From: Amycolatopsis solani
GTDB taxonomy: Bacteria; Actinomycetota; Actinomycetes; Mycobacteriales; Pseudonocardiaceae
DNA length: 64,000 nt
Assembly (NCBI RefSeq): GCF_033441515.1
Contig: NZ_JAWQJT010000004.1
Coordinates: forward strand, 310,001 to 374,000
Direction: 5' to 3'
The notes beneath the pieces were generated by a model that worked only from the letters and a program-made list of their open reading frames with translations, did no database searches and had not been told where the DNA came from. Numbering within the stretch: the first letter of the stretch is position 1; every line of letters starts with the position of its first letter. A program made the translations under genes and the position numbers. Below, piece by piece: positions 53,081 through 61,023 of the stretch.

Positions 53081-53238
53081 GTGCACGGGTGGAAGGTCAG
53101 GCGTATCGGGTTATCCTACCTGCGGGATTGCCAGATTTGACGCCGGCGGCTGCGCGTGCGCTGCTGGCCGTGCTGATCGAACTGACCGAGGTGCCGGTGC
53201 TCGACGGACCGGCAAGGGAGGCGACCGATGCCCGCTGA
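53077..53238 (+). CDS. 53-residue element protein
   Basis: ATG 53077 overlaps the translocase stop (ATGA), and the stop at 53236-53238 overlaps the recombinase start by 11 bp. The product reads MSARVEGQAYRVILPAGLPD then LTPAAARALLAVLIELTEV. It is a small acidic-neutral protein with one helix, fully embedded in the operon, so translated by coupling. Function unknown. Confidence 0.65.
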   Translation: MSARVEGQAYRVILPAGLPDLTPAAARALLAVLIELTEVPVLDGPAREATDAR

Positions 53239-54976
53239 AATCAGCGACCCGTGGTCGAAATTAGACGAAATCCTTGGGCTGGAGGTCGCCGAGCCCGTGG
53301 ACGAAGGGATCGGCGCCTTGGCCGTCTACGGGCGGTGCTCGACGGAGGACAACCAAGACCCGGAGACCTCGCGCGGCTGGCAGTTCGGAAACGCGCGGAA
53401 GTTCGTCGAGCCGCTGGGCGGCCGGATCGTGGCCGAGTTTTTCGACATCGGGCAGTCGCGTTCTGTGCCGTGGGACCGGCGAACCGAGGCGTCGCAGTTG
53501 CTGGCCGCACTGAAGAATCCGCGTCGTGGCTGGAATGCCTTGGTCGTAGGTGAAGGTACCCGGTGTTGGTTCGGGAATCAGTTCTCGCTCATCGCGCCGC
53601 GGTTCGCTGCCTACGGCGTGGACCTCTGGGTCCCGGAACTGGGAGGGAAGTTCGATCCGCGGAACCCGTCACACAAGATGCTGATGAGCGTGCTCGGCGG
53701 CATGAGCGAATCGGAACGGCAGCACGTTCAGGCTCGCGTGCGGGCCGCAATGGACGCGCAGGTAGTCAACGAAGGACGCCACCAGGGCGGCCGGGCGCCG
53801 TACGGGTACGTCGTCGTAGACGGCGGACCGCATCCGAACCCGCGAAAGGCAGCAGAGGGATTCCGGTTGCGTCTGCTCGCCCTCGACGAGTCGGCCGCCG
53901 AGGTCGTCCGCCGCATCTTCGCCGAATACCTCGCCGGCAATGGAGACCGGGCGATTGCGAACGGGCTGAATCGCGACGGCATCCCCTGCCCGTCGGCGCG
54001 GCGGCCGGACCAGAACCGGCACCGCCTTGCCGATGGCTGGCAGGGCAGCACGGTGCGGTCGATTCTGGAGAACCCGCGTTACACAGGGTTCGCGTTCTTC
54101 GGGCGTTGGGCGCGGCAGGAAATGCTGCTTGATCCTGACGACGTCGCGGCCGGAAACGTCGTCCGGTTCCGTCGCGCCAAGCCGGATCGGGTGGTTCGCT
54201 CCCGTAAGCCTGCACATCCCGAGATCGTGTCTGTCCAGGACTTCACGCAAACGCAGTTGATGCGGCGAGCCAAAGCGGCGGGTGGTCTGCGGACCGCGCG
54301 TAAGACCGAGCGCGCAGGACGAACGGTCAAGCACGCGTACCTGTTCCGTGGGCTTATTCGGTGTACTGCCTGCGGACGGAAGATGGAAGGCAGCCCGCGG
54401 AAGCACGGCATGTACTACCGCTGCCCGGCCCGGACGCTCACGCCAGGTTCGCCAGCCTTGCTCACGCATCCGCCGACGATCTATCTCAAGGAAGAGCCGC
54501 TGCGGGACGCTTTGAACGAGTGGATCGGCGGCCTGTTCGACCGGCAGAACATCGCACGGACCGTCGAGCAACTGGTCCAAGCTCAGCCGACACCGAAGAC
54601 GGCGGATGATGGCGCCGCACGGAAGCTACTGGAGGATGCGGAAGCGAGGCTGCAGCGGTTCCAGAACGCCATCTCCGCGGGCGTGGACCCGTCAGCAGTC
54701 GTCGAGGGCATCAACCGGGCGCAAGCCGATCGTGCGGCCGCTCAGGCGGAACTGATGGCGGCCAACGAACCTGCCGGGCTCGGCGAGGCTGAGGTCTACG
54801 CGATGATCGACTCGCTCGGCAACATCGGAGCGGCGCTGGCCGACGGCCAGCCGGGCCGGCTGGCTCAGCTCTACCGGGACTTGCGGCTTGACCTGCGGTT
54901 CGACCACGAAAAAGAGACCGTCGATGTGACGGCCTCTCCGCGGGTGAATAATGCGTGTGTCCGAGGGGGGACTTGA
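53228..54976 (+). CDS. int: large serine recombinase (integrase)
   Basis: 582 residues. Resolvase catalytic domain with nucleophile Ser38 in YGRCSTEDNQDPETSR, catalytic Arg residues in SRSVPWDRRTEA and in LGGMSESERQHVQARVRAAM. A recombinase domain follows (GGRAPYGYVVVDGG; AEVVRRIFAEYLAGNGDRAI; LENPRYTGFAFFGRWAR), then a zinc ribbon (CTACGRKMEGSPRKHGMYYR, then C) and a C-terminal coiled coil. The catalytic Ser is about 25 residues deeper than usual because of an N-terminal extension. Its last six codons overlap the 3' end of tRNA-Leu on the other strand, which therefore probably is the attachment site. Confidence 0.9.
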   Translation: MPAEISDPWSKLDEILGLEVAEPVDEGIGALAVYGRCSTEDNQDPETSRGWQFGNARKFVEPLGGRIVAEFFDIGQSRSVPWDRRTEASQLLAALKNPRRGWNALVVGEGTRCWFGNQFSLIAPRFAAYGVDLWVPELGGKFDPRNPSHKMLMSVLGGMSESERQHVQARVRAAMDAQVVNEGRHQGGRAPYGYVVVDGGPHPNPRKAAEGFRLRLLALDESAAEVVRRIFAEYLAGNGDRAIANGLNRDGIPCPSARRPDQNRHRLADGWQGSTVRSILENPRYTGFAFFGRWARQEMLLDPDDVAAGNVVRFRRAKPDRVVRSRKPAHPEIVSVQDFTQTQLMRRAKAAGGLRTARKTERAGRTVKHAYLFRGLIRCTACGRKMEGSPRKHGMYYRCPARTLTPGSPALLTHPPTIYLKEEPLRDALNEWIGGLFDRQNIARTVEQLVQAQPTPKTADDGAARKLLEDAEARLQRFQNAISAGVDPSAVVEGINRAQADRAAAQAELMAANEPAGLGEAEVYAMIDSLGNIGAALADGQPGRLAQLYRDLRLDLRFDHEKETVDVTASPRVNNACVRGGT

Positions 54977-58969: not shown

Positions 58970-59731
58970 ATGGCGCGCGCCGGCCGTCGGCGGGACGAGG
59001 AGATCTCGGTCGCCGAGCTGCTCCGGGAGACCGGGGCGACGCCGCGCTCCCTCGGCGAGGCGCCCGATGCCTCGACCGTCCGCGAGGAAGACACCGGGGA
59101 CGGCTACCGCGAACGCCTCGAGCAGCGAGCGCGCGAGGCCGCGGCGCACCAGCAGCGGGCCGGGCGGCGGATCCGGTGGATCTCCGCGCTCGCCGGGGCC
59201 GTGGTGGTGCTCGGCAGCCTGGTGCTCATCGCGGTGACGTCCGAAAGCTCCCCCGGCCGGCAGGCGGCGACGGCACCGGACGCGCTCTCCCCCGCGACGA
59301 CGACCCCGCGCTCCACCCCACCGAAGCCCACGCCGACGCCGATCCCCACCGTGCTCCGGCAGACGGCGTCCGCCACCACGACGCCGCCGTCCACGTCCGA
59401 AACCGCCCGGCCCGTGCTGTGCACCGTGCGCTACTCCGTGCGCGACCAGTGGAACGACGGCTTCACCGCCGACGTCTCCATCAGCAACAAGGGCGAGACC
59501 CGTTCGCCGTGGCAGCTCAGCTGGACCTTCACCGCGGGCCAGCGGGTCACCCACAGCTGGGACGGCGACTTCGGGCAGGACGGCGACCGGGTCACGATCA
59601 CCGCCGCGTCCTACAACGCCACCCTCGCCCCGGGCGCGACCGTCGGCTTCGGCTTCAACGGCGCTTCCGGCCGCGGCAACCCGGCGCCCACCGCGTTCAG
59701 CCTCAACGGTTCTCCCTGCTCGACGACCTGA
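58970..59731 (+). CDS. membrane-anchored CBM2 (cellulose/chitin-binding) protein
   Basis: 253 residues, ATG 58970. A cytoplasmic N-terminal segment of about 75 residues (VAELLRETGATPRSLGEAPD) leads to one transmembrane helix (WISALAGAVVVLGSLVLIAV). A Pro/Thr linker (PPKPTPTPIPT) and a C-terminal family 2 carbohydrate-binding module follow (CTVRYSVRDQWNDGFTADVS, WQLSWTFTAGQRVTHSWDGD), with conserved Trp residues and the disulfide Cys pair. No catalytic domain is present. It may tether the cell to polysaccharide. Its last 29 bp overlap the convergent P450 gene. Confidence 0.85.
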   Translation: MARAGRRRDEEISVAELLRETGATPRSLGEAPDASTVREEDTGDGYRERLEQRAREAAAHQQRAGRRIRWISALAGAVVVLGSLVLIAVTSESSPGRQAATAPDALSPATTTPRSTPPKPTPTPIPTVLRQTASATTTPPSTSETARPVLCTVRYSVRDQWNDGFTADVSISNKGETRSPWQLSWTFTAGQRVTHSWDGDFGQDGDRVTITAASYNATLAPGATVGFGFNGASGRGNPAPTAFSLNGSPCSTT

Positions 59732-60755
59732 CGACCGGCACGTCGGCCAGCTCCAGCAGGCCGTCGAGCTCGACGCGGGCCCGGGTCCGGCGCGGATCCG
59801 GCACCAGGCCTTCGGCGCGGACGACGTCGAGCAGCCTGCTCGCCAGCGGCAGCACCAGGTGCCGGCCCCAGCAGCGTTCGTTCGCGTGCCCGAACGGCAG
59901 GTAGCCGGGGTGGCTGTCCGGGTCGAGCGCGGCCCAGCGCCGGGGCCGGAACTCGGCCGGAGCTTCCCAGAGCGCCGGTGACCGGTGGCTCAGCAGCGGC
60001 AGCAGCAGGATGTCGTCGCCGGCCCCGATCCGCGGGTCGACCTCCGTGAACTCGGGCGAGCGGACGCGCAGGATGTTCCACGACGGCGGCAGCAGCCGCA
60101 GCGCCTCGTGGATGACGTGCTCGTTCGGGACGTCGTCGTCGAACGGCGCACCCAGCCAGATCGCGTTGGTGACCAGTGCCGCCACCGTGAAGCAGATCGG
60201 CGCGGCGACGCGGCGGTAGAGGTACATCCGGAACCGCCGCTCGGCGAGGTCTTCGGCGGCGACGACCTGCCGGGCGAGCGTGGACAGCCGCGTACCGGGG
60301 GCCGGCGGGCGGGCCAGCGCGGCGCCGGCGGTGACGGCCGACCACGTCAGTTTCGGCGTCAGCTCCAGGCGGCGGTCGACGAGCACGCGGAAGCGGCGGG
60401 TTTCGGGCCCGAAGACGAAGCGCCGCAGGTAGTCGTGCGGGACGGCCGGCCAGGTGCCGGTGAGATCGGGGCGGTCGGCGGGGCGCTTGAGCGCCGCCCG
60501 GACGTCCGCGCCCAGCGCCTGCATCAGCGCGGCGGACTCGGTGCGCGTGACGCGGCGGCCCAGCACCGGCTTGAACGTGGGCCGTTCCTCGGCGTTGGCC
60601 GGGCGGGCCCGGAGCACCCGGTCCATCGTTTCCGGGTCCGCGATCCCGATCGTGTCCGGCTCGAGCCGGAAGACACCGTCGCCGGTGTGCGCGGTGAGCA
60701 GTTGTTCGAGACGAGGGGCGAAGACGACCGTGCGGGACGCGCGGGCGATGACCAC
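59703..60755 (-). CDS. cytochrome P450 of a RiPP (atropopeptide-like) locus
   Basis: 350 residues, shorter than the usual 400. The ExxR pair is in HEALRLLPPSW, and the heme loop is FGHANERCWGRH with the thiolate ligand Cys295. The I-helix region around ICFTVAALVTNAIW lacks the normal acid/alcohol pair, as seen in P450s that cross-link aromatic peptides. Start GTG 60755 after GGAGGAG. It lies 57 bp downstream of a 25-residue aromatic-tailed precursor, separated by a hairpin. No other enzyme is in the operon, so this P450 is expected to form all C-C/C-N links of the product. Confidence 0.85.
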   Translation of the reverse strand: MVIARASRTVVFAPRLEQLLTAHTGDGVFRLEPDTIGIADPETMDRVLRARPANAEERPTFKPVLGRRVTRTESAALMQALGADVRAALKRPADRPDLTGTWPAVPHDYLRRFVFGPETRRFRVLVDRRLELTPKLTWSAVTAGAALARPPAPGTRLSTLARQVVAAEDLAERRFRMYLYRRVAAPICFTVAALVTNAIWLGAPFDDDVPNEHVIHEALRLLPPSWNILRVRSPEFTEVDPRIGAGDDILLLPLLSHRSPALWEAPAEFRPRRWAALDPDSHPGYLPFGHANERCWGRHLVLPLASRLLDVVRAEGLVPDPRRTRARVELDGLLELADVPVVRSSSRENR

Positions 60756-60779
60756 GTTCCGGGGCTCCTCCGGGAAAGG

Positions 60780-60806
60780 GGCCGGTCCCGGTGACCGGGA
60801 CCGGCC
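60780..60806 (-). terminator. attenuating hairpin between precursor and P450
   Basis: GGCCGGTCCCGGT and its exact complement (13 bp, one-base centre) lie between the precursor stop and the P450 ribosome site. Without a U-run it probably works as a partial terminator or mRNA stabiliser, giving more precursor than enzyme. Confidence 0.65.
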
Positions 60807-60812
60807 GGGTGA

Positions 60813-60890
60813 TCAGATCCAGCCGTACCAGGCGTAAGCCTTCAGGCTTTTCTTGGGAAGCGCTTTCTTGACCAGCCGGACGAGCTTCAC
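60813..60890 (-). CDS. RiPP precursor peptide, atropopeptide/tryptorubin-like
   Basis: 25-residue peptide, start GTG 60890 seven bases after GGAGGA, stop TGA 60813-60815. It is missed by ordinary gene calls because of its size. The basic leader (residues 1-19) ends KKSLKAY, and the C-terminus is AWYGWI. Known atropopeptides such as tryptorubin A arise from similar tiny precursors with an aromatic hexapeptide core (AWYIWY in tryptorubin A) processed by one P450 encoded next door. Here position 4 is Gly and the last residue is Ile, so the product would be new. The core boundary is inferred. Confidence 0.85.
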   Translation of the reverse strand: MKLVRLVKKALPKKSLKAYAWYGWI

Positions 60891-61023
60891 CGGATTCCTC
60901 CCTAGTTCGGTTCCAGGACCGTGATCGACACTAGACAGCGCTGGATCGGTTCCGCATCAAGCACTACACGTTCGGCCCAGATCTTTCGGCGGAAAAAGGG
61001 CGCGAAGAAAAATGCGTGTTAAA

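Follow-up and report, generated by a model that had tools for sequence, protein, structure and literature searches.

The window, a stretch of 64,000 nucleotides of Amycolatopsis solani DNA, carries a two-gene cassette on its minus strand, to which all coordinates of the cassette refer. The precursor gene (60813..60890) starts with GTG at 60890, comprises 25 codons followed by TGA at 60813-60815 and encodes VKLVRLVKKALPKKSLKAYAWYGWI. Its strong ribosome-binding site, GGGAGGA (60896..60902), is situated 5 nt upstream of the GTG; nearly all loci tabulated have a site of the GGAGG type ahead of the precursor, that of one close relative (L003) being GGGAGA. Residues 14-17 (60840..60851) are KSLK, the published recognition motif of atropopeptide leaders. 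The core AWYGWI occupies residues 20-25 (60816..60833), where Trp21 and Trp24 form the xWxxWx pair and Tyr22 is the third expected cross-link partner. The genes are separated by a hairpin of 27 nt with a perfect 12-bp stem and a 3-nt loop (60780..60806), which could be an attenuator or a stabiliser of the mRNA 3' end. The second ribosome-binding site, GGAGGAG (60765..60771), is located 3' of the hairpin; both sites were read from the sequence. It serves a gene (59703..60755) for a cytochrome P450 of 350 aa, the presumed cross-linking enzyme. The preliminary description of this DNA gave the coordinates, the sequence, the ribosome-binding site, the hairpin and the P450, and all of them are present as it had them.

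The Pfam p450 match of this enzyme (5e-12) is confined to residues 213-300. Glu217 and Arg220 of the K-helix ExxR motif (60096..60107), as well as Cys295 in PFGHANERCWG (59871..59873), which is presumably the haem ligand, are invariant in a 40-sequence alignment composed of the window P450 and 39 others chosen among 120 listed of 395 matches. The best match of the P450 (91% identity) belongs to Amycolatopsis sp. NPDC049159. An AlphaFold2 model built with the same 40 rows has a pLDDT of 87.5 and a pTM of 0.88. The 50 Foldseek matches listed from the PDB are all P450s of varied functions (TM to the query 0.48-0.64), P450Blt (8u2m) appearing among them at rank 23. The predicted structure confirms the P450 fold and says little about specificity.

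The precursor scores 40.9 bits (E 1.8e-10) with NF038372.1, the NCBIfam model for RiPP precursors of the tryptorubin family, whose curated cut-off is 33 bits. The genome of 10.28 Mb contains no second match to this model at E <= 0.001, and the cut-off is also passed by all five precursors of relatives tried, SvaA of the varsorubin locus included. Atropopeptides are defined by a P450, a KSLK leader and Trp at core position 2 (PMC11450843), and all three are found here. The class-defining P450 was judged by its pairing with the precursor and by its position in the clade of SvaB, the trp P450 WP_007820080.1 being outside the comparison. AWYGWI has the xWxxWx pattern (Trp at core positions 2 and 5) of the bitryptide subfamily. 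Biarylitides are specified by a five-residue precursor and an 18-bp gene (PMC13417212), and the precursor described here has 25 codons. Judged from its sequence, the locus is an atropopeptide-type RiPP locus with one precursor and one P450. The tryptorubin-type assignment of the preliminary description is upheld by searches of both genes against known families, the precursor passing NF038372.1 and the P450 grouping with SvaB.

A homology scan with the P450 gave 87 confirmed matches, the best 80 of which represent 79 distinct loci (L002-L080). In all 79 an atropopeptide precursor is located 5' of the P450. By motif, 77 of these precursors are of the KSLK type and end in xWxxW(x); the remaining two, L032 and L069, were assigned by eye and have diverged leader motifs (NLK and SFKR) and the cores AWYIWY and AWYHWY. 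In Xanthomonas cucurbitae (L061) the P450 beside a SWYIWY precursor is broken after about 99 residues, and an in-frame stop is likely there since the tblastn alignment continues unbroken to query residue 343.

For the P450 tree, 101 loci with both genes were taken, 8 duplicates and L061 with its broken frame were removed, and L105 and L106 were added. The resulting tree of 94 rows is of the quick kind, and its flagged long branches include L020 and L088. The window P450 belongs to a clade of 37 rows (SH-aLRT 99), of which 35 have the core AWYGW(I/V), while the others have AWYNWI (L088) and SWYQWL (L020). Named loci of this clade come from Amycolatopsis, Umezawaea, Streptomyces, Kitasatospora and Nocardia. 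To our knowledge, SvaB is the only characterised P450 in it. L020 is the published varsorubin locus, its contig (NZ_JOBF01000044.1), positions and core matching those of PMC11450843. SvaB groups with L018 (SH-aLRT 97), nested among the AWYGW rows of the tree; nesting as a claim was dropped, as the AU test allows SvaB outside these rows (p 0.27). The same test does reject a tree in which all 35 AWYGW rows form one group and both exceptions fall outside it (p 0.013).

The core changes little within this clade. Three core changes over 5.79 branch-length units are counted in the 37 rows versus 22 over 11.61 units in the 56 others, and two versus 18 at position 4; these are raw parsimony counts on one tree without the outgroup, for loci gathered by similarity to the window P450, and no significance is attached to them. 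In 20 Amycolatopsis loci the uncorrected pN/pS is 0.16 for the precursor and 0.18 for its leader, and the core is without any change, so far as sequence comparison goes a sign that the precursor is under purifying selection in this genus. Over the 35 AWYGW rows the values are 0.30 for the precursor and 0.03 for the core. The AWYGWI core thus appears nearly frozen across a P450 clade and unusually conserved. All 20 Amycolatopsis loci agree at every one of the six core codons (60816-60833 in the window), most adjacent codons varying, and this identity might reflect codon bias or a constraint at the RNA level.

Among 80 genomes from the genus, 25 (the window's own counted) match NF038372.1, 24 of them above the cut-off; none of 14 control genomes does. 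The five positive congeneric genomes that do not have AWYGWI contain AWYQWI, AWYNWI, AWYIWW, AWYLWI and one interrupted copy. In the family, 21 genomes out of 390 have the exact core pattern: 20 of the 80 in the genus (own counted) and one from another genus. Among 394 genomes sampled from the class it occurs in the window's own only. The precursor, whose absence from close relatives was to count against the preliminary description, thus recurs within the genus. The word new, if a previously unrecognised type is meant, is not supported: a curated NCBI model exists, more than 650 atropopeptide clusters have been published (PMC11450843), and the core itself is repeated among congeneric genomes. 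Searchable literature, with figures, supplements and most subscription papers outside it, yielded no product of AWYGWI, and there was no atropopeptide title among the matches listed for shorter core strings. The core may well already stand in the published AtropoFinder lists, because supplements and figures lay outside the literature search. The locus is one more member of a known and already mined family; what it adds, of moderate interest, is the near-frozen core and a family-wide hairpin.

Conservation of this kind also bears on whether the cassette is functional. A silent or decaying locus yielding no product is highly improbable, as precursor, ribosome-binding site, hairpin and P450 are all intact and the precursor is constrained within the genus. 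Two observations point the other way. A simple scan found no sigma-70-like promoter, about none being expected in such a region anyway, and in the congeneric genome G018 (L104, about 1500-1575) TGA takes the place of the core Trp2 codon in the precursor, while the P450 frame that follows looks intact. The locus of G018 may be naturally interrupted, or its sequence may contain an error.

According to the AlphaFold-based family model (PMC11450843), the leader helix attaches to the P450 with KSLK as its anchor, the core undergoes oxidative cross-linking within the active site, and a host protease releases it. For the locus described here, the leader helix would dock on the P450 surface and KSLK would thread the core into the active site, where Trp2, Tyr3 and Trp5 would be coupled oxidatively by the one P450. 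The hexapeptide would then be freed by an unlinked host protease, and Ala trimming would give the pentapeptide. No peptidase family was detected by Pfam in the seven neighbouring ORFs scanned, as the preliminary description had observed, and the characterised atropopeptide clusters are likewise described without a peptidase, a host protease being invoked (PMC11450843).

In varsorubin B1 (core SWYQWL) the bonds are C-C between Trp2 and Trp5, C-N between Trp2 and Tyr3, and C-N between Trp5 and a backbone amide, Leu6 being unlinked (PMC11450843). AWYGWI retains Trp2, Tyr3 and Trp5, and therefore a product of the varsorubin/tryptorubin type is likely by analogy. The likeliest pattern would be C-C Trp2-Trp5, C-N Trp2-Tyr3 and a pyrroloindoline C-N bond from Trp5 to the backbone (-4 H); a single Trp2-Trp5 bond (-2 H) could be the alternative outcome. 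The preliminary description expected Ile6 to alter the cross-linking through loss of a reacting Tyr. This expectation does not fit varsorubin B1, where residue 6 takes no part, and among the published examples compared laurentirubin is the only one with a cross-linked C-terminal Tyr, for which a second P450 is responsible (PMC11450843). One P450 can also produce different bond sets from one core, as in varsorubins B1 and B2a (PMC11450843), so the bond pattern given for AWYGWI is a guess.

A monocyclic product with a C-N Trp2-Trp5 link, of the bitryptide, scabrirubin or cihunamide type and perhaps trimmed to WYGW, would also fit the xWxxWx core. ScaB makes C-N rings across Trp-x-x-Trp, as shown by NMR on WYIW, WYIWY and WYQWL, and its action on the varsorubin core yields a single C-N bond between the Trp residues (PMC12352619); cihunamide B carries a Trp N1-Trp C7' bond. 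Such a product is nevertheless unlikely. The window P450 shares a clade with SvaB, an enzyme whose own products contain a C-C Trp-Trp bond according to NMR (PMC11450843), and is 62.5% identical to SvaB versus 55.9% to an Embleya P450 (scabrirubin core TWFIWYS). The tree is silent on nearness to the Embleya P450 because that row is the outgroup. As for position 4, occupied by Gln in varsorubin, ScaB tolerates nine of ten substitutions and also takes WEGYISY, a natural core whose residue there is Gly (PMC12352619); an effect of Gly4 on the outcome is possible.

For the varsorubin/tryptorubin-type product, the computed [M+H]+ values are 791.351 (-4H) and 793.367 (-2H) for AWYGWI, and 720.314 (-4H) and 722.330 (-2H) for WYGWI. 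The formula of Q is that of A and G combined, so that linear AWYGWI happens to be an isomer of WYQWL, the varsorubin peptide, and the expected m/z of 791.351 and 793.367 coincide with varsorubins B1 and B2. Because of this isomerism, mass alone cannot prove an AWYGWI product, and LC-MS could misassign it.

The hairpin region of the window folds better than most shuffled sequences (z -2.8; 2 of 200 shuffles are equally good), and its stem score is reached by none of 60 shuffles. Stems were scanned across the family in 93 non-duplicate loci, from the precursor stop to the first aligned P450 residue (a region of 50 nt or more, truncated at 110 nt), with 60 dinucleotide shuffles each. The median z is 4.5, z exceeds 3 in 79 of 93 loci, and in 71 no shuffle reaches the stem. 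All 37 loci of the AWYGW clade have z of 3.1 or more; the 14 loci not above 3 are L021, L022, L025, L026, L031, L034, L046, L051, L061, L066, L067, L075, L077 and L079. The hairpin is common across atropopeptide loci. A stem score of at least 30 is found in 80 of 93 atropopeptide gaps. Other gaps of 50-110 nt, taken from loci L002-L080 except L061 with genes called by a rough GC-frame method, attain this score in 9 of 96 cases between tandem genes, 26 of 52 between convergent genes and 0 of 37 between divergent genes.

Comparison of the 20 Amycolatopsis hairpins (17 distinct) aligned with MAFFT suggests some compensatory changes in the stem. Both partners differ at two of the 12 pairs, giving 9 such cells, with C-G replaced by U-A at one pair in 8 of 17 sequences; the number of such cells is reached by 0 of 500 shuffles and that of such pairs by 16 of 500. 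Seven pairs never vary, and further pair types are no more numerous than in shuffles (470 of 500 reach them). When the partner is slid by one column, pairing falls from 99% to 56-65%. When the hairpins are aligned more crudely, by their apex, 13 cells with changes on both sides are counted among 9 distinct Amycolatopsis rows and 125 among 26 distinct rows from the whole clade. Neither count is reached by any of 500 shuffles, but for the whole clade the number of pairs with such changes is reached by 410 of 500. Both alignments favour pairing because the stem was chosen in each sequence beforehand.

By analogy, the hairpin is probably a transcription attenuator, or else protects the upstream mRNA; either effect would leave the precursor in excess over the P450. 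A search for hairpins after precursor genes found a precedent in cinnamycin biosynthesis: in Streptomyces, the inverted repeat that separates cinA from cinM is an attenuator according to nuclease S1 protection and presumably sets stoichiometry (PMC5408092). It is somewhat unlikely that the hairpin functions instead as a stabiliser of the mRNA 3' end, or acts on P450 translation, rather than as an attenuator. The precedent found is an attenuator, and the strength of the hairpin resembles that of convergent and not of tandem gaps. On the other side, a canonical intrinsic terminator combines a GC-rich hairpin with a U-tract, and here the hairpin stands without one (0 sites in a terminator scan). 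In addition, insertion of a ribosome-binding site upstream of svaB raised the yield 100-fold (PMC11450843), so translation of the P450 can limit the pathway. Rfam gave no match above the gathering score at the hairpin, only a sub-threshold sul1 match within the P450 gene. Hairpins, terminators, inverted repeats and intergenic elements go unmentioned in the main texts of PMC11450843 and PMC12352619, the two atropopeptide papers examined for them.

As a whole, the minimal atropopeptide operon as proposed, with leader-guided cross-linking of AWYGWI by one P450 and a probable attenuator between the genes, is the best explanation, with a probability of about 0.8. A broader reading, in which the AWYGWI loci are a distinct subfamily whose product is fixed across Amycolatopsis, Streptomyces, Kitasatospora, Umezawaea and Nocardia by one specific conserved partner (for example, a signal), with a family-wide covarying attenuator setting the precursor:P450 ratio, is speculative and rather doubtful. 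The near-frozen core hints at a constrained function. The two-gene cassette is a concrete and cheap target with a core for which no product was found in print, and the hairpin offers a handle on the precursor-to-enzyme ratio and on yield.

The genes around the cassette were treated as chromosome context and not as a cluster, since homologues of the LysR, TPP-enzyme, CBM2 and NmrA neighbours are near the P450 in only 4 of 79 loci; their candidature as pathway genes was dropped. The four loci keeping this neighbourhood (L002, L003, L004 and L078) are all close Amycolatopsis relatives. The CBM2 gene (58970-59731), for a cellulose-binding-domain protein, is convergent with the P450 gene, and the 3' ends of the two ORFs overlap by 29 bases (59703-59731). 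About 5 kb from the locus, a large serine recombinase with Resolvase, Recombinase and Zn-ribbon domains is encoded at 53228-54976, a possible remnant of an integrated element.

Among known systems, cinnamycin belongs to another RiPP class; the cinA-cinM inverted repeat resembles the hairpin in standing after a RiPP precursor and before a modifying enzyme in an actinomycete, its attenuator function resting on S1 mapping there and being proposed here by likeness (PMC5408092). Tryptorubin A and the NF038372 family share with the locus the precursor size, the KSLK leader, the AWY.W core, the single P450 and no peptidase found alongside. The tryptorubin core AWYIWY differs from AWYGWI, which has Gly at position 4 and Ile at position 6, and the window P450 is in a different subclade from the sampled AWYIWY loci. 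Locus L105 of S. clavuligerus has the core AWYIWW as opposed to AWYGWI; it is situated on the large linear plasmid pF1D18A, whose incomplete gene table does not include the precursor gene. A match was present in 70 records; 20 of these are listed, and 16 of the listed ones come from S. clavuligerus. Clavorubin, we assume, originates from S. clavuligerus, and Amycolatopsis G079, by our guess A. xylanica, has the same AWYIWW core. We infer that AWYIWW is the core of both clavorubin and amyxirubin, and the notion that amyxirubin has the AWYGWI core was set aside on the strength of these two genomes. Clavorubin and amyxirubin are atropopeptides like the product expected here, amyxirubin also coming from Amycolatopsis (PMC11450843). 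The varsorubin (sva) locus of Streptomyces varsoviensis likewise has two genes, a KSLK leader and an aliphatic C-terminal core residue (PMC11450843), with SWYQWL in place of AWYGWI, a P450 of the same clade as that of the window, and a hairpin between its genes.
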